Part shown: positions 8,146-31,702 of the stretch, one piece after another
Position numbering within the stretch: position 1 is the first letter of the stretch
Layout of the letters: each line of letters opens with the position of its first letter
Source: Demequina rhizosphaerae
GTDB lineage: Bacteria; Actinomycetota; Actinomycetes; Actinomycetales; Demequinaceae
NCBI RefSeq assembly: GCF_000971255.1
Contig: NZ_BBMC01000002.1
Span: 620,001-684,000, forward strand
Length of the DNA stretch: 64,000 nucleotides
Direction: 5' to 3'
Position numbers and translations under genes: made by a program
The notes under the pieces: generated by a model
Seen by the model: only the letters and a program-made list of their open reading frames with translations
The model's database searches: none
What the model was told of the DNA's origin: nothing

Positions 8146-9924
8146 TCACGCATCCTTCGCGGCACGAGCCGAGCGCGCCCGCACCGGCATCTTGTCCTCG
8201 TCGTCGATGTCCTCCAGAGACGCGGCGATCTGCTCGAGCGCGGGTCCCAGCTTCTCCCGCTCGGGCCCGTCGTCCGCGTCCTGCGACAGCTCCTCCAGCG
8301 CAGGGAGGTCGTCGCCGTCGGGGTCGTCGTCCGGCGCGAGCGTCGGTACCGTCGCGCCGTCCTCCGTCGCCTCCGGCGCCTCGTCGGCATCCTCCGCCGC
8401 CTCGTGGGCATCCTCGGCCGGTTCGTCGGCGTCCGTCGCCCGCTCCTCGGCCACCTCCGCCTCGTCGCCGGTCGCCTTGCCGTCGGTCGGCCCCGCCGGG
8501 ACCTCGTCGTCATCGTCGTCCGCGGACGCCGAGTCCGACACCGCAGGCGGACCGAACTCGTCGGCGACCTTCGCGGTGTAGCCGTAGCCGTACGCGTAGA
8601 CGTCGCGGTGGGGACCGTGCTGCGGCACCGCATCGAGGACGATGCCGAGCACCCGGCCGTTGACGCGCTCGAGCGCTCGGAGCGCACGGTCGAGCATGTC
8701 GGTGGTGGTGCGACCGGCGCGGGCCACCATCACGGCGCCGTCGGTGTGCACGGTCAGGATCGCCGCGTCCGTCACGGGCAGCAGCGGCGGCGTGTCCACC
8801 AGCACGGTGGTGTGCTGGGGGAACGAGTAGAGCAGGGTGCGCAGCGCGTTGGAGCCGATGAGCTCCGACGGGTTCGGCGGGATCGGACCCGCGGACATCA
8901 CCTGCAGGTTGCCGGTGTCGCCGTACGGCTGCAGCACGTCCTCCACGTTGGCGCGTCCCACCAGCACGTCCGTCAGTCCCGCGTCGTTGGACAGCCCGAG
9001 GTTCGCGGCGAGCTTCGGCCTGCGCAGGTCGGCGTCGATGAGCACGACCTTCCGGTCGGACTGCGCGAGCGCCTCGGCGAGCTTGCAGGACACGGTCGAC
9101 TTGCCGTCGCCGGGAAGCGCGGAGGTGATGACGATGACGCGAGGCGGGTCGTCGACGCTCATGTACTGGAGGTTGGTGCGGAGCTCGCGCACCGCCTCGT
9201 TCATGAGCGGATCCGGCACCGAACGCGACGGCCCGGACTTCGCCAACGCCCCGACGTACGGGAGGGCGCCGATCACCGGGAGCGAGAAGGCCCGCTCGAC
9301 GTCGTCGGCGGAGCGCATGTGACGGTCCATCGAGGCACGGATGATCGAGTAGGCCACGCCGGCGGCGAGGCCGAGGACGAGGCCGATCGCGACCATGAGC
9401 TTGGTGTTCGGCGATGACGGCGAGGACGGTAGGTTGCCGGAGTCGAGGGTCTGCAGGGCGACGATCGACTCGCCGGTGCCGTCCGCGCCCGACTCGAGCT
9501 CCGCCACCTTCGCGGTGAGGCCCGTGATCCAGCCCTGGGTGAGCTCGCGCGCCGCCTCGGGCGACGGCCCGGTGGCCGAGATCCGCAGCACCGCCGTGTC
9601 GAGCGGGTTCGCCACGGTGATCCGCGTGAGCACGGTGTCCGGCGACTCGTCGAGCTCCATCTCGTCGACGACGTCCTCGGCCAGGCCGCGCGACTTCGCC
9701 ACATCGAGATACGAGGTCACGCGCGCGGCCGCGTAGTTCTCGGCCACGAGAGCCTCCGCGAGCGTCTCGGCCGCACCCGTGGACACGATCACGGATCCCG
9801 TGGACGTGTAGACAGTCGGCTGGAGCAACGTCCAGCCGAACGCGAGGCCTGCACCCATCAGCGCAGCCGAGAAGATCACCAACCAGTGAGCGCGAACGAT
9901 GCGCGCCAGTACGCCGATGGTCAC
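8146..9924 (-). CDS. Wzz/BY-kinase fusion with a long acidic C-terminal tail
   Basis: Second polysaccharide co-polymerase/tyrosine kinase of the locus (592 aa). Helix 1 is at about residues 13-34 and helix 2 near 170-192. The kinase has Walker A SALPGDGKST near 272, A' VVLIDADLRRPK, and Walker B TVLVDTPPLLPVTD. A short tyrosine cluster YAYGYGY lies near residue 443. Unlike the paralogue at 2786-4159, about 140 residues continue beyond it; they are rich in Asp/Glu/Ala and end with a basic RARSARAAKD, probably disordered. The start chosen is GTG at 9924, with a GGGGGGG run just upstream; longer forms would add 115 residues of antisense-like sequence. It is followed by the DUF4012 gene in the same direction. 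Confidence 0.9.
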   Translation of the reverse strand: MTIGVLARIVRAHWLVIFSAALMGAGLAFGWTLLQPTVYTSTGSVIVSTGAAETLAEALVAENYAAARVTSYLDVAKSRGLAEDVVDEMELDESPDTVLTRITVANPLDTAVLRISATGPSPEAARELTQGWITGLTAKVAELESGADGTGESIVALQTLDSGNLPSSPSSPNTKLMVAIGLVLGLAAGVAYSIIRASMDRHMRSADDVERAFSLPVIGALPYVGALAKSGPSRSVPDPLMNEAVRELRTNLQYMSVDDPPRVIVITSALPGDGKSTVSCKLAEALAQSDRKVVLIDADLRRPKLAANLGLSNDAGLTDVLVGRANVEDVLQPYGDTGNLQVMSAGPIPPNPSELIGSNALRTLLYSFPQHTTVLVDTPPLLPVTDAAILTVHTDGAVMVARAGRTTTDMLDRALRALERVNGRVLGIVLDAVPQHGPHRDVYAYGYGYTAKVADEFGPPAVSDSASADDDDDEVPAGPTDGKATGDEAEVAEERATDADEPAEDAHEAAEDADEAPEATEDGATVPTLAPDDDPDGDDLPALEELSQDADDGPEREKLGPALEQIAASLEDIDDEDKMPVRARSARAAKDA

Positions 9925-10084
9925 GAAGCCCCCCCTTGCCTGACCATAGGGGCAGTGTATGGCGGGACCGTCAACCACGGAACCCCTGGTCTCCGACAGT
10001 TGTCGGGCCCGTCTCCCGACGTCCCCGAAATCGCCCTGGCGCAGGCCCGATGCCGCGATTAACCTGAAGGCGGGCCGGCCCGGA

Positions 10085-10110
10085 CCGCGTCCCCTTCCTG
10101 AGGGACGCGG
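10085..10110. other. Perfect hairpin between divergent genes
   Basis: CCGCGTCCC and GGGACGCGG form a 9-bp perfect stem with an 8-base loop (CTTCCTGA). It lies in the 229-bp gap between the leftward BY-kinase start (9924) and the rightward polymerase start (10154), so it is in the leader or promoter region of the rightward gene, not at a 3' end. No U-tract follows. A leader structure is possible; function is unknown. Confidence 0.5.
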
Positions 10111-21532: not shown

Positions 21533-22701
21533 GCCCACGGCTCGTCCGCGACCACCACGTCCGCCCCGCTGTGCGCGGATTCCACGATCGCGAGCGACAG
21601 CGCGTGGTCCCACAGCCCCTCCGCGAGCGGGTAGGGCGCGGGCCCCTCGCCGCGCGCCCACCTCCCGGTGTCGAGCAGGATCTGCGCGACCGCGAGATCG
21701 TCCTCGGACATGCGGCTCGCGTGCCAGGCGTTGCGGTAGACCACGTCGCCGTCGAAGCTCATGTGCCACAGCGCGTTGCCCTCGAGGTTGAGGTCGACGC
21801 CGGTGCGGCGGTGCTCGAGCCGGCCCGCGACCGGGCCGTCGGGGGTCATGCGCAGGACGGAGTCGTCGGCGATCTCGCCGTGCGAGCCGCGGATGACGAT
21901 GCGGCGGTGCAGGTACGGGTTCCACCACTGGTTGTCGACGAAGTCGTACAGCCCGAAGCGGCCGTCGCCGAGGTCGAGCGTTGCGATCGTGGTGGTGCGG
22001 GGCTCGGCCGGCGGCACCGCGGTGGCCCCGCCCGGGACCGCGGCGGCCTCCTCGCCGGCCCCACGACCGACCCACCCGTCGGGCGTGAGCGGATCGACCA
22101 TCGGCGCGGTGAACGTCCGCGCGTTCACCCGCACCCCGGCGCCGGTCACGGGAGCGCCCGCGCCGAGCATCGTCCGAACGAGCGAGACCGCGTGATAGAG
22201 GTGCGTCGACGACACCTCGACCGTGTGCGGCGCCCCGATCACGCCCCTCTCGAGCAGCGCGATCCGCGCCGCATGGCCGGGCATGCGCGTGTACTGCTCG
22301 GCGACCTGGACCAGCCCGGACGACCCGACGTCGGCCCACAGCGACCGCAGCCCGTCGAGGTCCGGCGCGGGCGGCGTCTCCGCGAGCACCGGCACACCGG
22401 CGCCCACCACCTCGCGGATCACGCCCGGGCTCGCCTCCCACGGCACCGCCGCCACCACGAAGTCGGGCCGCAGGCTCAACGCCTGCTCGAGCCCGTCGAC
22501 CGGCAGGTGGTCGTGCAGGTGCGCCGAGAACGGCGCGGCGGCCGCGCGGGCCTCGCGCAGCGCATCGTGCGCCCGGCCGGGGTTGCGCCCGACGATCGCG
22601 ACCGGCTCCAGCACCTCCGGCGCCATCGCCGCGAGGCGCAGCATGAACCGCGTCCGCCAGCCCGTGCCGACGATCGCGAAGCGCACGGGCCCGCCCGTCA
22701 C
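21529..22701 (-). CDS. Gfo/Idh/MocA family oxidoreductase
   Basis: NAD(P)-dependent sugar-type oxidoreductase, 390 aa. The Rossmann start is RFAIVGTGWRTRFML with GxGxxx near residue 10; the family's E-x-P motif appears as LAETPPAPD near 107 (Pro-rich and lacking the usual Lys of EKP). The C-terminal domain includes TTTIATLDLGDGRFGLYDF and ends ALSLAIVESAHSG. GTG at 22701 overlaps the stop of the FAD-FeS gene and its own stop overlaps the SGNH gene, giving a three-gene coupled unit. Replacement of the EKP lysine by Thr is unusual and may mean altered catalysis. Substrate unknown. Confidence 0.85.
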   Translation of the reverse strand: MTGGPVRFAIVGTGWRTRFMLRLAAMAPEVLEPVAIVGRNPGRAHDALREARAAAAPFSAHLHDHLPVDGLEQALSLRPDFVVAAVPWEASPGVIREVVGAGVPVLAETPPAPDLDGLRSLWADVGSSGLVQVAEQYTRMPGHAARIALLERGVIGAPHTVEVSSTHLYHAVSLVRTMLGAGAPVTGAGVRVNARTFTAPMVDPLTPDGWVGRGAGEEAAAVPGGATAVPPAEPRTTTIATLDLGDGRFGLYDFVDNQWWNPYLHRRIVIRGSHGEIADDSVLRMTPDGPVAGRLEHRRTGVDLNLEGNALWHMSFDGDVVYRNAWHASRMSEDDLAVAQILLDTGRWARGEGPAPYPLAEGLWDHALSLAIVESAHSGADVVVADEPWA

Positions 22702-25568
22702 CGCGACTCCATCCGCTCGACCAGCAGCTGCGCCAGATGCCTGCCCTGGACGCCGGCGAGGTCGTCGGCCTGCGTCCGGCACGAGACCCCGTCCGCGAGG
22801 TAGATCGAGCCCTCGGGGGCGGACCGCAGCGCGGGCAGCAGCGAGTTCTCGGCGACCTTCACGGAGGTCTCGTAGTGACCCTTCTCCGTGCCCCAGTTCC
22901 CCGCGAGGCCGCAGCATCCCGCGGTCTCGGTCACGGAGGCGCCGGCGCGCGCGAGCAGCTCGCGGTCCGCCGCGTACCCCATCACCGAGTACTGGTGGCA
23001 GTGCGGCTGCACCACGGCCTCGACGTCGTCCAGCGACGGGATCCGCCAGCCGTCGCGCGGCTTGACCGGCGCCCGGCCGGTGAGCACCTCGGCCAGCGTG
23101 TAGGTGGACGATGCGACGGCGCCGGCGCGCGGGTCGTCCGGCAGGAGCTCGGTGAGGTCGCTGCGGAGGACCCCCATGCACGAGGGCTCGACGCCGACGA
23201 TCGGCACCCCGTTGACGGCCCACGGCCCGAGCACGCCGAGCAGGTGGGACAGGTGCTTCTTGGCGCCGTCGAGCTGGCCCGTCGAGATCCACGTGACGCC
23301 GCAGCACGCGTCGCCCGCGACCACCACGACGTCGATCCCGGCACCCTCGAGCACCGAGACGATCGCGGTGGGGATCTCGGGGTCGAGGCCGTCCGTGAAC
23401 GAGTCGGCCCACAGGACCACGAGGTTGTCGAGGCGGGTCGCCCTGTCCGGGTTCGCGCGGCGGGCGCGCGCGACGGCCGACCGCCGGAACGGCACCTTGA
23501 ACTCCGGCAGGCGGCGGCGCTTGTCCATGCCCGCGACCGGGACGACCAGGCGTTGGATCCAGTCCGGCTTCAGGACGGTCGAGATCAGCCGCGGCGCGAG
23601 GCCCACGAGCTTGAGCCAGCGCGGCAGCCACCCGATCGAGTAGTGGGTCATGGGCCTGACCCGCCCCTTGTAGGTGCGGTGCAGCACCTCGGACTTGTAC
23701 GCCGCCATGTCGACGCCGCTGGGGCAGTCCGAGGAGCACGCCTTGCACGACAGGCACAGGTCGAGGCTCTCGAGGACCTCGGGCGAGGTCAGCCCGCCGA
23801 TGAGCGTGCCGTTGAGCGCGTCCTGCAGCACGCGGGCGCGGCCGCGGGTGACGTCCTTCTCGTCGCCGGTCGCCTGGTAGCTGGGGCACATGAAGCCGGA
23901 TCCGGCGCCGATCGAGTCCGCGCGGCACTTGCCCACGCCCGTGCAACGGTGGACGGCCTCGGCGAGGTCGCCGTGGTCGTGCTCGAGCGCGAGGCCGAGG
24001 GCCGGCGTGCGGGGCGCGGCGGGGCGGCGCAGGTGGGCGTCGAGCGGGTCGGGATCGACGATGACGCCCGGGTTGAGCAGGTTCTCGGGGTCGAAGAGGT
24101 GCTTGACGCCCCGGAACAGCGCGACGGCCTCGTCGGAGTACATGGTCGACAGCAGCTCGGAGCGGGCGCGGCCGTCGCCGTGCTCGCCGGAAAGCGATCC
24201 GCCGTGCGAGGCGACGAGCGCGGCGGCGTCCTCCATGAAGGCGCGCAGCGGGCGTCCGTCCTCCTGGAGCGGGATGCCGAGGCGCACGTGGATGCAGCCG
24301 TCGCCGAAGTGGCCGAACGGCTGGCCGACCACGCCGTGGCGGTCCATGAGCGCGTCGAAGTCGCGCAGGTACGCGCCGAGCCGCTCGGGCGGGACGGCGG
24401 CGTCCTCCCAGCCCGGCCACGCCTCCTGGTTGTCGGGGGTGCGGCCGGACAGGCCGGCACCGTCGGCGCGGATCGCCCACAGCCGGGCGGCCTCCCTGGG
24501 GTCCGCGACCTCGCGCCAGACGTCGGTGCCGGAGTCCGCCGCGAGCGCGGCCAGCGTGGCGCGCGCCTCGTCCTCGGTCTCGCCGCCGACCTCGACGAAC
24601 AGCCAGCCGGCGCCGTGCGGGAGGTCGGGCACGGGCCCGGTCGCGCCCGCGACGCGCGCGACGAGGCGGGCGTCGAGGCCCTCCACGGCCTGGGGACGGT
24701 GCGCGAGCATGGGGACCACCGCATCGGCCGCCGCGGGCATGTCGGGGTAGCCGAAGGCGGCGGTGAGCCGCACGGGCGGCACGTCGACGAGCCGCACGGT
24801 CGCCTCGAGGACCGTGGCAAGCGTGCCCTCGCTTCCCACCAGGAACTTCGCGAGGTCGCCGCCCAGCTCGGGCAGCAGGTGCTCGAGCGAGTAGCCGCTC
24901 ACCTGGCGCGAGAAGCGGCCGAACTCGGTGCGGATGAGCGCGAGGTTGGCCTGGACCAGCTCGTCGAGCCCCTGCACGGAGTCGACGCCGCGCGAGCCGG
25001 CGGCGAAGACCCGCCCGAGCCCGTCGACCGCGTCGAGCGCGAGGACGTTGTCGGCGGTGCGCCCGAAGGCGACGGCGTGCGGGCCGCACGCGTTGTTGCC
25101 GATCATCCCGCCGAGCGTGGCGCGAGTGGAGGTCGACGGGTCGGGGCCGAAGCGCAGCCCGGCGCCCGCGACGGCCGCCTGGAGGTCGGACAGCACCACG
25201 CCGGGCTGGACGCGCGCGGTCTTGGCCTCGAGGTCGACGTCGAGGATGCGGGTCATGTGGCGGCTCGTGTCGAGCACGAGGCCCGGGCCGATCGCGTTGC
25301 CCGCGACCGAGGTGCCGCCGCCGCGCATCGTCACCGGGACGCGGATGTCGTGGGCGACGCTCAGCGCGGCCAGGAGGTCGGAGGCGTCGCGCGGGTAGGC
25401 CACGACGGCGGGCGGGATGCGGTAGTTGGAGGCGTCCGTGGAGTACTCGGCGCGGCGGCGCGGCGACACGTCCACCTCGCCGTCCATGGCGCGCGCGAGG
25501 GCGGCCGCGAGATCCGCGGCGTGGGCCGGGGCGGGAGTCTGGGGCGCCGTCGTCGTCACGCGCGCCAT
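22698..25568 (-). CDS. FAD-linked oxidase fused to 4Fe-4S and CCG domains (DLD/GlpC-like)
   Basis: A 956-residue fusion. Residues about 50-500 form a GlcD-like FAD-linked oxidase: the PCMH FAD domain has VVAYPRDASDLLAALSVA and MRGGGTSVAGNAIGPG, and the C-terminal cap has GQPFGHFGDGCIHVRL and SLSGEHGDGRARS, which holds the family's active-site His. Next come CTGVGKC and CLSCKACSSDCPSGV, ferredoxin-type cysteine clusters, then a CCG/heterodisulfide-reductase-like part with DACCGVTW, VQPHCHQYS and TAGCCGLAGNWG. Such fusions oxidise D-2-hydroxy acids and pass electrons to the respiratory chain. ATG at 25568 has GGTGGAAGA upstream. The neighbours (Gfo/Idh and SGNH) are coupled to it; substrate unknown. 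Confidence 0.9.
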   Translation of the reverse strand: MARVTTTAPQTPAPAHAADLAAALARAMDGEVDVSPRRRAEYSTDASNYRIPPAVVAYPRDASDLLAALSVAHDIRVPVTMRGGGTSVAGNAIGPGLVLDTSRHMTRILDVDLEAKTARVQPGVVLSDLQAAVAGAGLRFGPDPSTSTRATLGGMIGNNACGPHAVAFGRTADNVLALDAVDGLGRVFAAGSRGVDSVQGLDELVQANLALIRTEFGRFSRQVSGYSLEHLLPELGGDLAKFLVGSEGTLATVLEATVRLVDVPPVRLTAAFGYPDMPAAADAVVPMLAHRPQAVEGLDARLVARVAGATGPVPDLPHGAGWLFVEVGGETEDEARATLAALAADSGTDVWREVADPREAARLWAIRADGAGLSGRTPDNQEAWPGWEDAAVPPERLGAYLRDFDALMDRHGVVGQPFGHFGDGCIHVRLGIPLQEDGRPLRAFMEDAAALVASHGGSLSGEHGDGRARSELLSTMYSDEAVALFRGVKHLFDPENLLNPGVIVDPDPLDAHLRRPAAPRTPALGLALEHDHGDLAEAVHRCTGVGKCRADSIGAGSGFMCPSYQATGDEKDVTRGRARVLQDALNGTLIGGLTSPEVLESLDLCLSCKACSSDCPSGVDMAAYKSEVLHRTYKGRVRPMTHYSIGWLPRWLKLVGLAPRLISTVLKPDWIQRLVVPVAGMDKRRRLPEFKVPFRRSAVARARRANPDRATRLDNLVVLWADSFTDGLDPEIPTAIVSVLEGAGIDVVVVAGDACCGVTWISTGQLDGAKKHLSHLLGVLGPWAVNGVPIVGVEPSCMGVLRSDLTELLPDDPRAGAVASSTYTLAEVLTGRAPVKPRDGWRIPSLDDVEAVVQPHCHQYSVMGYAADRELLARAGASVTETAGCCGLAGNWGTEKGHYETSVKVAENSLLPALRSAPEGSIYLADGVSCRTQADDLAGVQGRHLAQLLVERMESR

Positions 25569-25650
25569 TCTTCCACCCCCGCCCCCGTGTGCTGCCAGGG
25601 ACGTCGGGCCCGGGCGAGCCGCGCATCGTCCACGCGCACGATCCTGTCGG

Positions 25651-25681
25651 AGACGTGTCAAACAGTTGCAGACGTGACAAA
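25651..25681. repeat. Direct repeat upstream of the secreted protein gene
   Basis: AGACGTGTCAAA at 25651-25662 and AGACGTGACAAA at 25670-25681 are direct repeats 19 bp apart (11 of 12 bases identical). They sit in the 150-bp gap between the leftward FAD-FeS gene and the rightward secreted gene at 25719. Two regulator half-sites on nearly the same DNA face are possible. Confidence 0.35.
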
Positions 25682-25718
25682 TGGGACGCACGATGAGTCA
25701 TAGCCCGAGGGAGGCCTC

Positions 25719-26378
25719 ATGCAGCCGTTGCGCGCACTCGCCTTCGCGACCGTGCTCGCCACCGCCACCGCCGGAGGCGCAGCGGTCGCGGCGTCGGTCG
25801 TGACCGCGATCGAGGTCGCGGCGACCACGCCGAACGTCAACGTCAACGTGTCGTGCGGCTCGCAGATGAACCTCGACATCACCTACAACGAGGCCCCGGA
25901 GATCGAGGGCGTCAACTGGGTGTTCACGGTGACGACGTCGGAGGGCGACGTGTTCGTGCTCGAGGACATGGACTCCGACCTCATGGGCTTCCACCCCGTC
26001 ATCCCGGCCGAGGACCTGCCCGACGTCAACTACACGTTCACGGTCGACGCGCAGTACGGCGACGAGGTGTTCCTCGGGGTGTTCTCGGGTTCGGTCGTGT
26101 GCACGACCGAGCCGCCGGTGACGACGCCGACCCCGACGCCGACCGAGACCGAGACGACGGAGCCGACCACCGAGCCGACGTCCACCACGGACCCGACCTC
26201 GACCACGGAACCCACGTCGACGACCGAGCCGACCTCCACGACCACCTCGGAGCCCACGGAGACCGCGACCTCCGAGCCCACCGAGACCGCCACCGACGGC
26301 ACGGACACCGGCACGGACGTGCTCGACGACAGCTCGGGCGCCTCGCCGGTCCCGGGCGACGCCGACTACACCGGCTAG
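25719..26378 (+). CDS. Secreted Thr/Glu-rich protein ending in YTG
   Basis: 219 aa. A signal peptide (residues 1-25, ATATAGGAAVAAS) precedes a globular part (about 30-125) with two cysteines and beta-rich text such as NLDITYNEAPEIEGVNWVFTVTTSEGDVFVLED, which resembles an Ig-like or cell-surface adhesion domain. Residues 130-195 are PT/TE/TS repeats typical of a linker or glycosylated stalk. The protein stops at SPVPGDADYTG with no hydrophobic tail. The same (Y/F)TG ending is seen in the proteins at 26582 and 28643. GAGGGAGG lies four bases before the ATG. Family not recognised. Confidence 0.8.
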   Translation: MQPLRALAFATVLATATAGGAAVAASVVTAIEVAATTPNVNVNVSCGSQMNLDITYNEAPEIEGVNWVFTVTTSEGDVFVLEDMDSDLMGFHPVIPAEDLPDVNYTFTVDAQYGDEVFLGVFSGSVVCTTEPPVTTPTPTPTETETTEPTTEPTSTTDPTSTTEPTSTTEPTSTTTSEPTETATSEPTETATDGTDTGTDVLDDSSGASPVPGDADYTG

Positions 26379-26581
26379 CAGGGGCGTCACGCCCAGACGG
26401 CGGCGAGAAGAGCGCAGTCCCACGCGCCCCATCCGTCACACCCGTATCGCCGCCCCGCATCAGCCACGGAGATTTCGCGACGCACGCGCCGCGCCGAGAG
26501 CCCGGCGAGACGATCGAAACAGCTGGGGGTAGCGGTGCCATTGCTGAGGGCCCCCACGTCCCCCCGGCGTTGGAGGGCGTC

Positions 26582-27142
26582 ATGCGCACCCGCACACTCC
26601 TCGCCTCGACCGGACTGCTCGCGCTGGGCATCGTCGCCGGCGCGTCCGCGGCGATCGCGGGCGAGAACAACCCGAGGAACGACCCGCACGTCGAGACCGA
26701 GAAGGTCATGATCTGCCACGCCACGGCGTCGGAGAAGAACCCCTTCACCGTGAACGAGATCTCGTTCAACGCCGTCGACAACGGCTACAACATCGACTGG
26801 AACGGCCACGGCGACCACGAGGGCGACATCATCCCGGCGTTCGCCGACTTCCCGGGCCTCAACTGGACCGAGCTGGGCCAGGCGATCTGGAACAACGGCT
26901 GCGAGGTGCCCACCACGGAGCCCGAGCCCCAGGAGACCACCGTCCCCGAGGAGACCGAGACCCCGGAGCCCGAGGAGACGACCACCCCGGAGGAGACCCC
27001 GGAGCCGGAGGAGACCACGGAGACCGAGACCGAGGTCGAGGTCGAGTCCGCGACCACCACCACCGAGGACACGGAGGAGGAGGCCGCCCCGGAGGCCGAG
27101 TCCGCGACGGCGGTGCTGTCCGACGCCGGCTTCACCGGCTGA
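26582..27142 (+). CDS. Secreted protein with CHAT..H..H motif, Glu/Thr-rich tail ending in FTG
   Basis: 186 aa. Signal peptide at residues 1-26 (ending ASAAIAG). The globular part contains KVMICHATASEKNPF and HGDHEGDIIPAF, a pattern (CHAT..NP....H..H..DI.P) repeated in many secreted actinobacterial proteins of unknown function; the His/Asp cluster could bind metal. Residues 110-170 are acidic PEE/TTE repeats. It ends at VLSDAGFTG with no anchor. TTGGAGGG lies five bases before the ATG. It follows the YTG protein at 25719 by 203 bp and is followed by a strong bidirectional terminator. Note that the sequence motif is unrelated to the CHAT protease domain. Confidence 0.8.
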   Translation: MRTRTLLASTGLLALGIVAGASAAIAGENNPRNDPHVETEKVMICHATASEKNPFTVNEISFNAVDNGYNIDWNGHGDHEGDIIPAFADFPGLNWTELGQAIWNNGCEVPTTEPEPQETTVPEETETPEPEETTTPEETPEPEETTETETEVEVESATTTTEDTEEEAAPEAESATAVLSDAGFTG

Positions 27143-27160
27143 CGACCGCCCGAGGGGGGC

Positions 27161-27193
27161 AGGGCCGGGCGGGCGCGATGCCCACCCGGCCCT
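27161..27193. terminator. Bidirectional terminator hairpin
   Basis: AGGGCCGGG and CCCGGCCCT form a perfect 9-bp stem with extra inner pairing (CGGGC with GCCC) around GCGAT. It lies between the converging genes at 26582 and 27209. Confidence 0.7.
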
Positions 27194-27208
27194 CGCATCG
27201 TCCCCGCG

Positions 27209-27619
27209 CTACGCCGGGACGACGGACGGGCCGGGCTCGAGCCCGATGCTCTCCATGAGCGCGCGCACGCGGCCGTCGATCTCGTCGCGCTGCGCCTCGG
27301 ACGGGCCGGGCTCGATCGCCCAGTCCTCGTAGCGCTTGCCGGGGATGTACGGGCAGGCGTCGCCACAGCCCATGGTGACGATGACGTCGGCCTCCTGGAG
27401 CTGCGAGTCGGTCCAGCGCTTGGGGTGCTCGTGCGTGATGTCGATGCCGACCTCGGCCATCGCGGCGACGGCGCCCGCGCTGAGCGCCTCGCCCGGCTGC
27501 GAGCCGCCGGACCACGAGGTAGCGCGGTCGCCGGCGTAGTGGGCGAAGAGGCCGAGGGCCATCTGGGACTTGCCCCCGTTCTTCACGCAGAGGAACAGGA
27601 CGGCGGGCTTGTCGGACAT
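27209..27619 (-). CDS. Arsenate reductase, LMW-phosphatase fold (CX5K type)
   Basis: 136 aa, cytoplasmic. The active-site loop is CVKNGGKSQM beginning at Cys11, with Lys at the position normally held by the P-loop Arg; as I recall, actinobacterial arsenate-mycothiol transferases share this NGGKSQM form. A second cysteine pair (MGCGDACPYIPGKRYEDW) near residues 84-90 and WAIEPGP follow the family pattern. It would reduce arsenate to arsenite. ATG at 27619 has AAGGAG six bases upstream. It lies 10 bp downstream of the ArsR-phosphatase fusion and must be co-transcribed with it. No arsenite efflux gene is visible nearby. Confidence 0.88.
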   Translation of the reverse strand: MSDKPAVLFLCVKNGGKSQMALGLFAHYAGDRATSWSGGSQPGEALSAGAVAAMAEVGIDITHEHPKRWTDSQLQEADVIVTMGCGDACPYIPGKRYEDWAIEPGPSEAQRDEIDGRVRALMESIGLEPGPSVVPA

Positions 27620-27629
27620 TTCTCTCCTT

Positions 27630-28307
27630 CTATCGGGACGATGCGGTGGTCGTGGTGCGGAGCGTCGCCGCGAGGCGGCGGACCCGAGGTTCGAGGGCGT
27701 CGAAGGCCGCGGCGAAGGCGCGCGTGGTGCCCTCGGCGGCGGGATCGGGGACGGACCAGTGGAGGTCGCCGCCGCAGTCCTCGTACGCGAGGTCGCACAC
27801 GGCGACGACGAGGTCGCCCGCATCGCGGACCTCGTCGAGGGCGGCGGGGGCGAGGGCGACCGGCGCGAGGCCGCGGCGGTCGAGCTCGTCGAGCGCGAGC
27901 GGGTGGATGCGCGGCGCGGGATCCGTGCCGGCTGACGCCACGGGCACGATGCGCGCGGCCGCCAGCATCGCGGCGGCCATCTGCGAGCGGGCGGAGTTCG
28001 CGGTGCACGTGAAGACCACGCGGTCCGGCCGCGCGGCCGCCTCGCCGGCCGGGCGGGACACGGCCGCCTCGACCAGCGGCGACCACGCGAGCGCGAGGTA
28101 GGAGCGGCGGCGGTCGGCGTCCGAGCGACGGCGGCGGACCACACCCGCGTCCTCGAGCGCCCGCAGGTGGTGCGCGAGCAGGCTCGAGGCCATCCCGGTG
28201 CGCGCGCCGAGCTCGCCCGGGGCGAGGTCGCCGTCCGCGAGCGCGTCGACGAGCGCGAGACGATGCGCGTCGGCGAGGGCCGCGAGGACGGCGAGGCGGT
28301 CGGTCAC
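27630..28307 (-). CDS. ArsR-type repressor fused to a LMW phosphatase/arsenate reductase domain
   Basis: 225-residue fusion. Residues 1-85 are a winged-helix ArsR domain: LAALADAHRLALVDALADGDLAPGEL, then GMASSLLAHHLRALEDAGVVRRRR. Residues 95-215 are a LMW-PTP-like domain with P-loop CTANSARSQMA (C-x5-R-S) near residue 100 and VPDPAAEG in the acid-loop position. No CVC-type metal site is visible in the HTH part, so sensing may use other cysteines (CDLAYEDC near 170). GTG at 28307 gives the standard ArsR N-terminus. A perfect inverted repeat lies 14 bp upstream and is the likely autoregulatory operator. Such fusions are known in actinobacteria; here it pairs with a separate CX5K reductase. Confidence 0.85.
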   Translation of the reverse strand: MTDRLAVLAALADAHRLALVDALADGDLAPGELGARTGMASSLLAHHLRALEDAGVVRRRRSDADRRRSYLALAWSPLVEAAVSRPAGEAAARPDRVVFTCTANSARSQMAAAMLAAARIVPVASAGTDPAPRIHPLALDELDRRGLAPVALAPAALDEVRDAGDLVVAVCDLAYEDCGGDLHWSVPDPAAEGTTRAFAAAFDALEPRVRRLAATLRTTTTASSR

Positions 28308-28642
28308 GCGGCGAGGATATCTCAATCTTGATTGAGAGAATCGCGCAAGGTCGCCGCGGCGGGGCGACCGCCGCATCGTCCCTGCTCACCGGCCCGGAAC
28401 GTGCGGCGACACGCGGCGTGGCGGTGCGCGCGCATCGTCACGTCGGACACCAGACTTGAGCCGATAACACCCTCACTTCTGTCACATCCTTCACGCACGT
28501 ATATCCCCGGCACATGCGTCTATGTGCGGTTCGCCACACCTTTGACGGCCCCCTGCGCCCGCCAGACGATGGGGCCAGCCGGGAGGGCGGGGCGCTGCTG
28601 AGGGCGCCGGATCACCCCCTCCCGCAGCGGAGGGAACTGAAC
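28308..28642. other. 335-bp intergenic region between divergent genes
   Basis: Holds the ArsR-type operator next to the leftward start (28321-28336) and, towards the right, a less GC-rich stretch (about 28440-28545) that probably carries the promoter of the secreted protein at 28643. The leader then reads GCTGCTGAGGGCG and GGAGGGAACTGAAC before the ATG. No open frame with a convincing start was found. Confidence 0.6.
28321..28336. promoter_or_regulatory. Perfect inverted repeat, likely ArsR operator
   Basis: CTCAATC-TT-GATTGAG: two perfect 7-bp arms with a 2-bp centre, starting 14 bp upstream of the ArsR-fusion GTG at 28307. ATCAA/TTGAT-type half sites are usual for ArsR-family repressors, so autorepression of the arsR-arsC operon is inferred. 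Confidence 0.75.
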
Positions 28643-30652
28643 ATGCTGAGGAAGACCCTCGTGGTCGCGGCCGTCGCCGCGCTCACGATGATGATGAGCT
28701 CGCCCGCAGGGGCGACGAGCGGCGACACGCAGCCCGGGAACGACGGCGTCCACAAGGTGTGGGTGTGCAAGTACTCGGGCACGCCCTACGTCGACGAGGT
28801 GCTGAAGCCGGGCAAGAACCCGATCGCCGTCGACGGCAGCGCGACGGTCGGCACGTACTTCAAGGACGGCCAGGGCCAGTCCTTCGTGCTCGACGACGTG
28901 ACCGACGAGAACACCGCGCAGGGCGAGCGCTACACCGGCACGCTCACGTGCCCCGAGGGCCGCTCGTTCGACCATGACTGGGAGTACGCGGCGCCCTCAT
29001 GCGACGCGCTTACGGTCGACTACCCCGAGGCTCTGCCGGCAGGCCAGGCCAACGACGTCAACGTGCGGATCAAGAACCTCGCCACCGGCCAGGAGAAGAC
29101 GCTCAACTTCCACAACGGCGGCGGCACCTGGTCCGGCACGCAGGTCTTCGACTTCGCGTCGCACCACGCATGGCCCGCCTGGGGCTACTACGCCGTGACG
29201 TGGGTCCAGGTGGCGGGCTCCAACTACCACTGGTCCGGCGAGGTGACCTGCGGCCAGCCCGAGAAGCCCGAGAAGCCCGAGACGAAGGTGGAGACCACCC
29301 GGTGGACGGTCTCGGACTACGTGTGCGAGTCCGAGTCGGTCGCGCTGGCGCGCAGCGTGACGACGACCACCTACACGTGGGATGAGGGCTCGTGGAGCTG
29401 GAAGGCCTCCTCCTCGACCGAGACCGAGACCGACTCGCGCGCCATGACGGAGCAGGAGAAGGCGGCACAGTGCGAGGAGCCCCCGGTCGACGTCTGCCTC
29501 AACATCGACGGCATCCAGACCGAGGTGCCGGACGGCTACAAGGCGGACGGTCAGGGCAACTGCTGCAAGTGCACGCCCCCGCCGGTGGTCGACAAGTGCC
29601 TCAATATCGACGGCGACCAGGCGACCGTGCCCGAGGGCATGACGCGCGACGAGAACGGCGACTGCTGGACGCCGAAGCCGCCGACCAAGGTCGAGTTCAC
29701 CGAGTGGGCCGTCTCCGACTTCATGTGCGAGAGCGAGAAGGTCACCGAGACCAGGACGAAGTCGATGACCACGTACGCGTGGGACACCGCGACGGGCACC
29801 TGGGTCGGCACCACCACGGAGACCGTCCAGTCGCACACCCGGGCCATGACGGCGGACGAGTCCGCCGAGCTGTGCCCGCCGCCGATCGACGTCTGCGAGA
29901 ACCTGCCGGGCATCCAGACCGAGCTGCCCGAGGGCCTCGTGATGGACGAGGGCGACTGCCTCATGCCGCCCGAGGTCACCGTGAGCGAGTGGACCGGTGA
30001 GCCGGTGTGCGACATGACCTCGTACACCGAGTGGGCGACCGAGACCACGAGCGGCTACCTGCCCGTCGAGACCGAGGGCGGCTACAGCTGGGCGCCGTAC
30101 GTCACGTACAAGACGCTTTACCGGACGGTCGAGGTCGACGAGGTCATCCCCTGCGACGTCGAGGAGCCGACCGAGCCGACGATCGACGGCACGATCGTGG
30201 GCGAGATCTGCACCGCCGACGCGCCGTACCTCGGCTACGACATCGTCCTGGACGACCCGGACGGCGTCTCGACCGACGACGGCACCGCGACGATCACCTT
30301 CGTCCACCCGACCAACGCGGCGAAGAACTGGTCGACCACGGTCGCGATCGGCACGGGCAAGATCCTGTGGCCGGGCGCGAGCGTCGACGAGGACGGCGTC
30401 GCGAACAACTGGCCCGGGTACAAGTACTCCGAGTCCAAGGACGAGTGGGTGTCCGTGGGCGCGAAGAACTACGGCTGGACCAGGGCCGACGACACCGAGG
30501 TGATCATCTCGGTCAACCCGAGCAAGACCTTCACGGTCTCCTACCCGCCGGCCACCCCGGTCTGCAACTCGGAGCCTCCCGTGGAGATCGTGAGCGTCCT
30601 CGACGCTCCGGCGGCCACCCCGGTCACGGGCGTGGCGACGTACACCGGCTGA
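28643..30652 (+). CDS. Large secreted repeat protein ending in YTG
   Basis: 669 aa with a signal peptide (residues 1-25, ending SSPAGA). The first domain has KVWVCKYSGTPYVDEVLKPGKNPI, a beta-type segment seen in actinobacterial secreted proteins. Two internal repeat types follow: (a) W.VSD..CESE.V....T..YTWD, twice in full (near residues 218 and 353) and a third degenerate form; (b) C.NIDG.Q..VP.G....G.C, three times (near 281, 316, 418). A C-terminal domain (about 510-640) has repeated Trp/Tyr-rich strands. The chain stops at ATPVTGVATYTG with no membrane anchor. Many cysteines suggest disulfides. Family not recognised; an adhesin or surface-layer type role is inference. GGAGGGAACTGAAC precedes the ATG. 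Confidence 0.8.
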   Translation: MLRKTLVVAAVAALTMMMSSPAGATSGDTQPGNDGVHKVWVCKYSGTPYVDEVLKPGKNPIAVDGSATVGTYFKDGQGQSFVLDDVTDENTAQGERYTGTLTCPEGRSFDHDWEYAAPSCDALTVDYPEALPAGQANDVNVRIKNLATGQEKTLNFHNGGGTWSGTQVFDFASHHAWPAWGYYAVTWVQVAGSNYHWSGEVTCGQPEKPEKPETKVETTRWTVSDYVCESESVALARSVTTTTYTWDEGSWSWKASSSTETETDSRAMTEQEKAAQCEEPPVDVCLNIDGIQTEVPDGYKADGQGNCCKCTPPPVVDKCLNIDGDQATVPEGMTRDENGDCWTPKPPTKVEFTEWAVSDFMCESEKVTETRTKSMTTYAWDTATGTWVGTTTETVQSHTRAMTADESAELCPPPIDVCENLPGIQTELPEGLVMDEGDCLMPPEVTVSEWTGEPVCDMTSYTEWATETTSGYLPVETEGGYSWAPYVTYKTLYRTVEVDEVIPCDVEEPTEPTIDGTIVGEICTADAPYLGYDIVLDDPDGVSTDDGTATITFVHPTNAAKNWSTTVAIGTGKILWPGASVDEDGVANNWPGYKYSESKDEWVSVGAKNYGWTRADDTEVIISVNPSKTFTVSYPPATPVCNSEPPVEIVSVLDAPAATPVTGVATYTG

Positions 30653-30910: not shown

Positions 30911-31702
30911 CTACGCCTCGTCGATGTGGACCGGCGTCCCGAGCGGGATCCCGATCTCCTCGACCATCTCCGTGATGACGTCGTTGGGGACGCGGATGCA
31001 GCCGTGCGAGATCGACTTGCCGAACGAGTCCGGGTCGTTGGTGCCGTGCAGCCCGATGACCGCGTCGCCGCCCGCGAACTCGTCGAGCACCGGCGAGTAG
31101 CCCGACAGCCCGTACGCGTACGGCCCGTAGAGCCCGTCCGGGTCCGGCGGCTGCAGCAGCTCGCGCACGTAGTAGACGCCGCCCGGCGTGGGCAGCTCGT
31201 CCGTGCCGAGCCCGATCTCCGTGGTGAGCACCTCGTCCTCGCCGTCCCACACGATGAGCTCGTAGGCCTCCATGTCGATCTCGATGCTCATGTGCGTCGC
31301 GGCGAGCGAGACGTCGTCGGCGGCCACCCAGCCGGTGGAGCCGTTCGGCCGGATCGGCAGGTACACCTCGAGCCACGAGCCCTGGATCTGCTTGACCAGG
31401 AAGGTCAGCGGGGTCTGGTCGGGCACGGTGAGGACATCCGCGGCCTTCACGACGGTCTTCTTCGCGCCGTCGGGCTTCTTCAGCACCGTCACCTTGGTGC
31501 CGCGCGCGGTCGCGATGTAGGACAGCGTCGAGTCCTCCGACGCGGTCGCGGAGGGCTCGGGCTCCGGGGTCGTCGTCTCGGTCGGCGCGACGGCAGCGAC
31601 GGTGGACGATGCGCTGGTGGCCGGCGACGGCTCGGCCGCCGGCGTGCACGCGGACAGCGCGAGCGCGCCCACGACGGTGAACAGCGCGACGATGCGACGC
31701 AT
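30911..31702 (-). CDS. L,D-transpeptidase lipoprotein (YkuD domain)
   Basis: Cross-links or modifies peptidoglycan by 3-3 transpeptidation outside the membrane. 263 aa: a signal peptide with lipobox (LALSAC, Cys19), a Thr/Glu/Ser-rich spacer (residues 20-60), an SH3-like region (about 60-130) and the YkuD domain (about 135-263) with the catalytic motif HGTNDPDSFGKSISHGCIRVPN; the nucleophile is the Cys in SHGCIR near residue 236. ATG at 31702 is preceded by GAGGGAGGTCCG. It is monocistronic: a strong terminator (31746-31781) separates it from the symporter gene upstream. Confidence 0.93.
   Translation of the reverse strand: MRRIVALFTVVGALALSACTPAAEPSPATSASSTVAAVAPTETTTPEPEPSATASEDSTLSYIATARGTKVTVLKKPDGAKKTVVKAADVLTVPDQTPLTFLVKQIQGSWLEVYLPIRPNGSTGWVAADDVSLAATHMSIEIDMEAYELIVWDGEDEVLTTEIGLGTDELPTPGGVYYVRELLQPPDPDGLYGPYAYGLSGYSPVLDEFAGGDAVIGLHGTNDPDSFGKSISHGCIRVPNDVITEMVEEIGIPLGTPVHIDEA

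Follow-up and report, generated by a model that had tools for sequence, protein, structure and literature searches.

We analysed a window of 64,000 nucleotides from the genome of Demequina rhizosphaerae (contig NZ_BBMC01000002.1, positions 620,001–684,000 of the forward strand; the coordinates below count from the first nucleotide of this window). It contains three neighbouring genes for secreted proteins with a common C-terminal ending, subsequently named the tag, and next to them a gene for a YkuD L,D-transpeptidase (LDT). Tagged secreted protein 1 (P1; 25719–26378, plus strand, 219 amino acids) is composed of a signal peptide, a small domain, a Thr/Pro/Glu linker and the tag, which ends in GDADYTG (26355–26375) in front of the stop codon at 26376–26378. 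Protein 2 (P2; 26582–27142, plus strand, 186 amino acids) bears a signal peptide, a domain containing the sequence MICHATASEKNPF, a Pro/Glu/Thr linker and a tag with the end SDAGFTG (27119–27139). A 93%-identical orthologue ends in SDAGYTG, so the exchange of Phe and Tyr preserves the motif. Protein 3 (P3; 28643–30652, plus strand, 669 amino acids) carries a signal peptide, several domains and a tag with the end GVATYTG (30629–30649). The signal peptides of all three proteins look to be of the Sec type, as judged from the sequence by eye alone.

The original prediction had described three neighbouring proteins that end in (Y/F)TG at the stop, that differ in their bodies and that carry neither a hydrophobic segment nor a basic tail after the motif. 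The three endings are indeed found at the ends of the open reading frames (ORFs), and pairwise BLASTP yielded best E-values of 0.32 (P1/P3), 13 (P1/P2) and only 0.005 (P2/P3), the last match (22% over 67 residues) covering the signal peptide and the start of the mature part. In P1–P3 the stop codon follows directly after Gly without a membrane segment or basic tail, the other reading frames beyond the stops show no continuation of a sorting signal, and no LPXTG or LAXTG pentapeptide was found ahead of the C-terminus. The tails of P1 and P3 agree at 9 of 16 residues. Searches of P1–P3 against Pfam and NCBIfam gave zero families above cut-off, and zero NCBIfam CTERM models were above cut-off.

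The LDT gene (30911–31702, minus strand) lies tail-to-tail with P3 at a distance of 258 bp and encodes 263 amino acids with a lipoprotein-type N-terminus (judged by eye); its product is the putative tag-processing enzyme. The protein matches PF03734 with 53.6 bits (cut-off 23.4; E 4.9e-14), is the sole YkuD protein found in the genome and adjoins three of the genome's four tag genes. It contains the HGT...(S/H)GC-x-R motif; His219, Gly234, Cys235 and Arg237 are invariant across 35 LDTs, and the codon of the catalytic Cys235, in ISHGCIRVPN, is located at 30998–31000 (minus strand). An AlphaFold model of the LDT reached a mean predicted local distance difference test score (pLDDT) of 86, with B. 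subtilis YkuD (4a1i/1y7m) as the best fold match. The fold search also matched PDB entry 4lpq, the solved LDT domain of the actinobacterium Xylanimonas cellulosilytica.

In the whole genome (3.03 Mb, 15 contigs) the pattern A-x-[YF]TG-stop occurs at exactly three sites, all of them tails of P1–P3; the search gave eight matches, five of which read TGG and hence contain no stop. The pattern [YF]TG-stop, in a search restricted to [YF]TG with [YF]AG outside it, occurs at six sites (12 further matches read TGG), corresponding to four genuine genes, all for secreted proteins, and two spurious short frames. The fourth gene, for a secreted protein ending in EAAAPVAATPTFTG, is located beyond the window on its contig. 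On contig C8 one [YF]TG site, ∼3 kb from a sortase gene, was rejected as a short spurious frame. This genome-wide pattern, in which four of four genuine [YF]TG genes encode secreted proteins, points against a lack of enrichment of the ending; such a lack in related proteomes had been named beforehand as a refutation of the tag.

Comparison with relatives showed that the (Y/F)TG ending is real but only a part of the motif, which extends over ∼15 residues and includes Val at position −9 and Ala at −12. An approximate consensus is A-x-P-V-x-[AG]-x-P-[TS]-[FY]-[TA]-G-COOH, and ATPVTGVATYTG is an example of such a C-terminal end. We tabulated 56 LDT-adjacent tags after removal of three loci (L185, L186 and L088); they were chosen for [YF][TA]G, so that the last three positions are fixed by selection. 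Val at −9 and Ala at −12 are each found in 42 tags. Pro occupies −10 in 32 tags and −5 in 29; outside Demequina, 24 of 28 tags have it at −5. Lys is absent from the last three residues of all 56 and occurs within the last six of only two. Homologues of P2 in the genus show the ends SDAGYTG, AVAGTPSYTG, PVAATVTYTG and AVAAKVTYTG; those whose frame extends to a stop codon share this terminal motif, contrary to the concern that homologues might end differently, and YAG-type variants occur in other tagged proteins. The genes that correspond to P3 in other members of the genus likewise encode this kind of ending. The variant endings in relatives are YAG and FAG, rarely YSG and YPG. Other Demequina species carry one to three tagged proteins in each neighbourhood, many species have several per genome, and the precursors range from ∼90 to 2100 residues. 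Two of them (L128, L138) consist of little besides signal peptide, low-complexity linker and tag; the tag is therefore unlikely to be part of a folded domain.

A similarity search with the window LDT in 44 Demequina genomes yielded 54 matches in 40 genomes, 41 of them strong (E ≤ 1.3e-72, in 37 genomes) and the other 13 weaker. In 26 of the strong-LDT genomes the loci were chosen on LDT similarity alone: a frame ending in [YF][TA]G lies beside the LDT, within 509 bp, at 26 of 26. The other 11 genomes, found partly via tags or P2, likewise carry an adjacent tag. At one locus from a 50%-complete genome (L069) the tag gene is frame-broken in the assembly, and the tag was found by pattern and its intact end read. 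Two genomes (G007, G009) contain the LDT–tag pair without the oxidase-like and phosphatase-like neighbours of most other species. In some Demequina genomes (L041, L052, L070, L076) a strong LDT is present twice, in one block with two or three tagged proteins, which suggests a joint duplication.

Four Demequina genomes (G003, G005, G013 and G053; 85–99% complete) gave no match to the window LDT, defined as no protein match at E ≤ 1e-10, without a search for other YkuD proteins. No tag gene was found in them at 73 of 78 [YF][TA]G-stop sites, those read (55 of 60 TRA-stop and 18 of 18 TAG-stop sites); five G053 sites were left out, and YSG and YPG were not part of the search. Long frames at these sites encode what we take to be an LpqB-like lipoprotein, a recombinase and a GreA-like protein, and some are antisense frames.

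In order to follow the association outside the genus, 297 genomes of the order were searched with eight candidates scored per genome; LDT matches with E ≤ 1e-30 were obtained in 38 genomes, 16 of them outside Demequina. These 16 genomes, from six families, contributed 19 loci, all of them included on LDT similarity alone. At 18 loci, from five families, the direct neighbour of the LDT is an ORF that ends in [YF]TG and has a linker or a start resembling a signal peptide. The exception, L140 from the sixth family (9343–10092 of its contig), is an LDT homologue without an adjacent tag that carries PTGGVR in place of (S/H)GC-x-R and has no catalytic Cys. It sits in a purD–purC-like interval, and in its genome no [AP]-x-[YF]TG-stop site was found (the single pattern match reads TGG; the pattern covers only Ala or Pro two residues ahead of the aromatic residue). 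L140 is a possible case of natural loss of the system. In the best 80 of 388 relatives with named genomes, 32 Demequina loci were set aside and the pair was found at 12 of the 48 non-Demequina loci: Aeromicrobium (2), Serinicoccus, Phycicoccus, Goekera, Actinotalea (2), Cellulomonas bogoriensis, Actinomadura, Actinoallomurus (2) and one unclassified actinobacterium. The Serinicoccus and Phycicoccus loci repeat genomes of the 19-locus set.

As a control we compared all frames of at least 80 codons in 45 loci, separating those with a 3′ end within 600 bp of the LDT from those farther away. Among the 619 near frames 32 end in [YF]TG and seven in [YF]AG; none ends in [YF]T plus another residue, five in another residue plus TG and one in [YF] plus another residue plus G. 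The 4285 farther frames contain 25 [YF]TG ends and one [YF]AG end, some of which belong to further tag genes. Under the strict 600-bp rule 39 of 45 loci score; of the rest, five are divergent with distant 3′ ends and one is L140. The gene caller had taken antisense frames at six loci (L127, L128, L131, L135, L138, L142), and the association was retested on all frames. The orientation of the 56 pairs varies by clade (24 convergent, 20 co-directional and 12 divergent); the pair is thus not one frozen operon. In a quick tree of 93 LDTs, from which 14 loci at contig edges or duplicated within one genome had been left out, 9 changes account for the tag label, compared with a mean of 28.7 for shuffled labels. 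It clusters by clade, though not as a single block. The tree also places the LDT of a record labelled as a Bifidobacterium breve metagenome-assembled genome (MAG; L247, CAMAQM010000009.1) very close to that of an Acidimicrobiales MAG, and this record is probably mislabelled or contaminated.

Some of the tagged proteins could be assigned to a domain family. All seven proteins of the Phycicoccus/Serinicoccus/Aeromicrobium/Goekera type that were scanned, from six genomes (L124, L125, L126, L183, L184, L186 and L188; L124 and L186 belong to one genome), match the NCBIfam model NF041518 ‘choice-of-anchor Q’, and the domain ends 28–38 residues ahead of the C-terminus. By its name, this is presumably a domain that precedes various anchor signals. 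Three tag proteins of other types (L238, L211, L136) gave no NCBIfam match in the same scan.

Taken at the level of sequence, a genuine conserved C-terminal recognition tag, as put forward in the original prediction, is well supported: the ending is kept across families, on differing bodies and with a constant gene partner. As to the co-occurring enzyme for which the prediction had suggested a search, a YkuD LDT accompanies the tag, and the comparisons strongly support a partnership of the two. We propose, with a probability of roughly 0.55, that the LDT uses secreted proteins as acyl donors through their C-terminal Thr-Gly (or Ala-Gly), drops Gly and joins Thr to peptidoglycan, which would amount to sortase-free wall anchoring in actinobacteria. 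That the LDT acts on the tag, as well as Thr-Gly cleavage, donor chemistry, peptidoglycan as acceptor and covalent attachment, we infer. The tagged protein would be exported by Sec, and the Pro/Thr/Glu-rich linker would keep its free C-terminus close to the lipoprotein LDT. The LDT Cys would then attack the carbonyl of Thr (or Ala) with release of the terminal Gly, and the Thr acyl-enzyme would be passed to a side-chain amine of peptidoglycan, which would fix the protein to the wall. The achiral Gly with its free carboxylate could mimic D-Ala4 of the stem tetrapeptide, in which an L-centre is followed by D-Ala-COOH; L-Thr-Gly-COOH would thus imitate the L-diaminopimelate (DAP)-D-Ala-COOH stem end. 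The aromatic residue at −3 and the conserved upstream tail could supply specificity. Cleavage would leave Thr on the enzyme, like that of sortase at T|G, without a membrane-retention segment. Such a donor reaction would explain the position of the tag at the very end, the constant Gly, the exchange of Thr for Ala and why no membrane segment is needed.

Published work on LDTs fits such a reaction. LDTs attack the L-centre carbonyl of the stem tetrapeptide, release D-Ala and transfer the resulting acyl moiety to an amine; a peptide whose Lys is acetylated was also accepted as donor (PMC13235563). LDT-dependent muropeptides include terminal Gly4 that arises via D-Ala exchange (PMC8649774); since Gly-4 muropeptides are made by exchange, LDTs form an L-residue-Gly-COOH bond and could in principle break it. 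The literature searched, which mostly did not extend to subscription papers, contained no earlier account of the tag or of the LDT–tag pair. The enzyme itself is a YkuD LDT; the system would be new as a whole if the LDT does act on the tag.

Several observations weigh against this proposal. A Thr donor outside the γ-D-Glu-L-DAP context is not known as a substrate of any LDT. The 26 Demequina loci are not independent because much of the neighbourhood is syntenic within the genus. Only two of the 13 weaker Demequina LDT loci have an adjacent tag (L080, L088); at four a [YF]TG protein is found 4.7–4.9 kb away, and at seven none is present in the stretch read. No tag occurs within 4 kb of the LDT at 36 of the 48 non-Demequina loci from the best 80 of 388 relatives, 12 of which lie within 1.5 kb of a contig end. 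Judged by record titles, these comprise 20 Acidimicrobiia, 4 Nitriliruptoria, 4 Actinomycetes and 8 others, mostly unclassified. As homologues in Acidimicrobiia, Nitriliruptoria and others have no tag within that distance, the LDT family itself needs no tags. The four Actinomycetes are Klenkia and Actinotalea ferrariae, at whose loci a contig end cuts the sequence short, and Actinotalea fermentans and one Actinomycetales MAG, where an intact LDT lies in a purine operon with no tag nearby. Finally, a 2025 review on LDTs, in its available part, lists protein links only with the protein as acyl acceptor, via Lys or the N-terminus, and in Gram-negatives (PMC12729407).

Searches of the last two Actinomycetes genomes with the [AP]-x-[YF]TG-stop pattern revealed in A. 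fermentans a secreted protein ending in PPATPATGTPRFTG, which speaks for the proposal, plus one ambiguous frame truncated at the edge of its contig; the MAG contains a likewise truncated frame ending in APSFTG. An LDT gene among purA-, purD- and purC-like genes (assigned by eye) is seen in cellulomonad-type genomes, at L219 (4609–5403), L233 (4785–5576) and L140. The weaker Demequina LDT paralogues mostly adjoin mdh/sucC-like genes. Secreted proteins with VDPVALAIQATFTG-like ends are encoded 4.7–4.9 kb from the weaker LDT at L085, L086, L087 and L089 and adjacent to it at L088, and the distant proteins of the first four loci end in QATFTG or QGTFTG. The L086 protein, from the only one of these loci that was scanned, contains the NCBIfam choice-of-anchor U and Q domains; as the anchor-U domain extends nearly to the C-terminus, its end was not counted as a sure tag. 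The loci with VDPVALAIQATFTG-like ends possibly represent a second tag–LDT pair.

The tag could instead be read by another, unlinked protein, as a sorting, binding or protease signal, the LDT merely being a frequent neighbour in cell-wall loci. Some tag genes do lie away from an LDT, and the Demequina neighbourhoods share further genes (oxidase-like, ArsR/phosphatase-like). We nevertheless consider this unlikely: in the gene lists the LDT is the one gene seen beside tags in all families examined and in three orientations, and the LDT-less Demequina genomes show no tag gene at the sites read. Improbable, too, is a non-covalent role, in which the uncleaved tag would bind the LDT as a docking, activating or inhibitory tail in the donor site and the tagged proteins would be partners or regulators. 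Such binding accounts equally for the gene association and for the stem-like free C-terminus. However, the tagged proteins are very diverse, several are found per genome, some are encoded distant from the LDT, and anchor-type domains precede the tag in the scanned type; because of these features, many substrates of one enzyme fit better than one regulator.

A degenerate sortase signal, addressed to a class E or F sortase, is very doubtful. The original prediction had pointed to a likeness to the end of an LPxTG signal, Thr-Gly is the sortase scissile pair and the genome has two sortases. The likeness is not supported, as LPxTG/LAxTG, hydrophobic segment and basic tail are all missing and neither sortase is encoded on the window's contig. 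We also rejected a sortase as the tag partner: all 44 Demequina genomes searched contain sortases, whether they carry tags or not, so that their co-occurrence is uninformative. An ordinary sortase-type pair of the same genome looks to be present on contig C8 (L040, 11667–13223), where a short sortase lies beside a secreted protein whose C-terminus comprises a membrane segment and a basic tail.

It is hardly credible that the LDT attaches the proteins as acyl acceptors via Lys or the N-terminus, in the manner of Braun lipoprotein and of Brucella and Coxiella outer-membrane proteins, with the tag as recognition sequence only. All LDT–protein links listed in the available part of the review are of this kind (PMC12729407), but Lys is nearly absent from the tail positions, as counted above, and it is the very C-terminus that is conserved. 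Chance, or a common descent of the tails, can practically be dismissed, as the likeness of two of the three window tags over 16 residues stands against differing bodies, recurrence in five other families of the order under LDT-only selection and the near absence of other tripeptides at the same place, which argues strongly against chance.

Sortase/LPXTG systems, including class E with LAXTG, resemble the proposed anchoring by the LDT in the secreted protein, the disordered Pro/Thr-rich linker, the C-terminal Thr-Gly pair and a dedicated extramembrane Cys transpeptidase; here, in contrast, the signal forms the extreme end of the protein, its carboxylate being free, lacks membrane segment and basic tail, and is partnered by a YkuD LDT. 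PEP-CTERM and GlyGly-CTERM signals hold a transmembrane helix and a basic tail, which the window tags lack, and use other enzymes. What exosortase and rhombosortase systems share with the tag is that many short C-terminal signals are directed to one processing enzyme (PMC3237569, as far as its available text goes). LDTs are known for beta-lactam-resistant cross-linking and for Lpp tethering. Braun lipoprotein Lpp, OutB of Dickeya and outer-membrane proteins of Coxiella and Brucella likewise combine a YkuD LDT with a peptidoglycan target. There the protein is the acceptor and the stem the donor, in Gram-negatives (PMC12729407, available part), whereas the tagged proteins of the Gram-positive actinobacteria would act as donors. 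OutB is described as obeying the Lpp rule (PMC12274547); the Lpp-type C-terminal Lys-Arg or Lys-Lys acceptor is absent from the last three residues of all 56 tags. In Corynebacterium diphtheriae, ZnuF is attached to the wall without known sortases (PMC12445094), and for PorH/ProtX of C. glutamicum the mechanism of wall attachment is open (PMC12632848). ZnuF differs in having a C-terminal membrane segment and charged tail (PMC12445094), and the available parts of both papers report no comparable tag.

If the proposed donor reaction holds true, protein sorting with proteins as donors would be a further function of LDTs. This would account for the wall retention of many surface proteins that lack LPXTG in actinobacteria, assign a definite function to a set of LDT genes and predict carbapenem-sensitive surface display; the tag, a few residues long and with its carboxylate free, would then lend itself to C-terminal ligation. 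The question bears on sortase-independent wall proteins in actinobacteria, and the association alone provides a simple rule for finding such proteins and their likely partner enzyme.

Other genes of the neighbourhood were considered as tag partners and rejected: the flavin adenine dinucleotide (FAD)/Fe-S oxidase-like gene, the ArsR/phosphatase-like pair (assigned by eye) and a DUF389 protein accompany many Demequina clusters, but they were not seen beside the pair in other families (lists read by eye), where the LDT persists. In the window, a low-molecular-weight phosphatase/arsenate-reductase-like gene and an ArsR-like regulator (by eye) lie between P2 and P3 at 27180–28376 on the minus strand, and this pair recurs at the equivalent place in many relatives. 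The oxidase-like gene (by eye; 22698–25691, minus strand, 997 amino acids) adjoins the tag cluster in many Demequina genomes.

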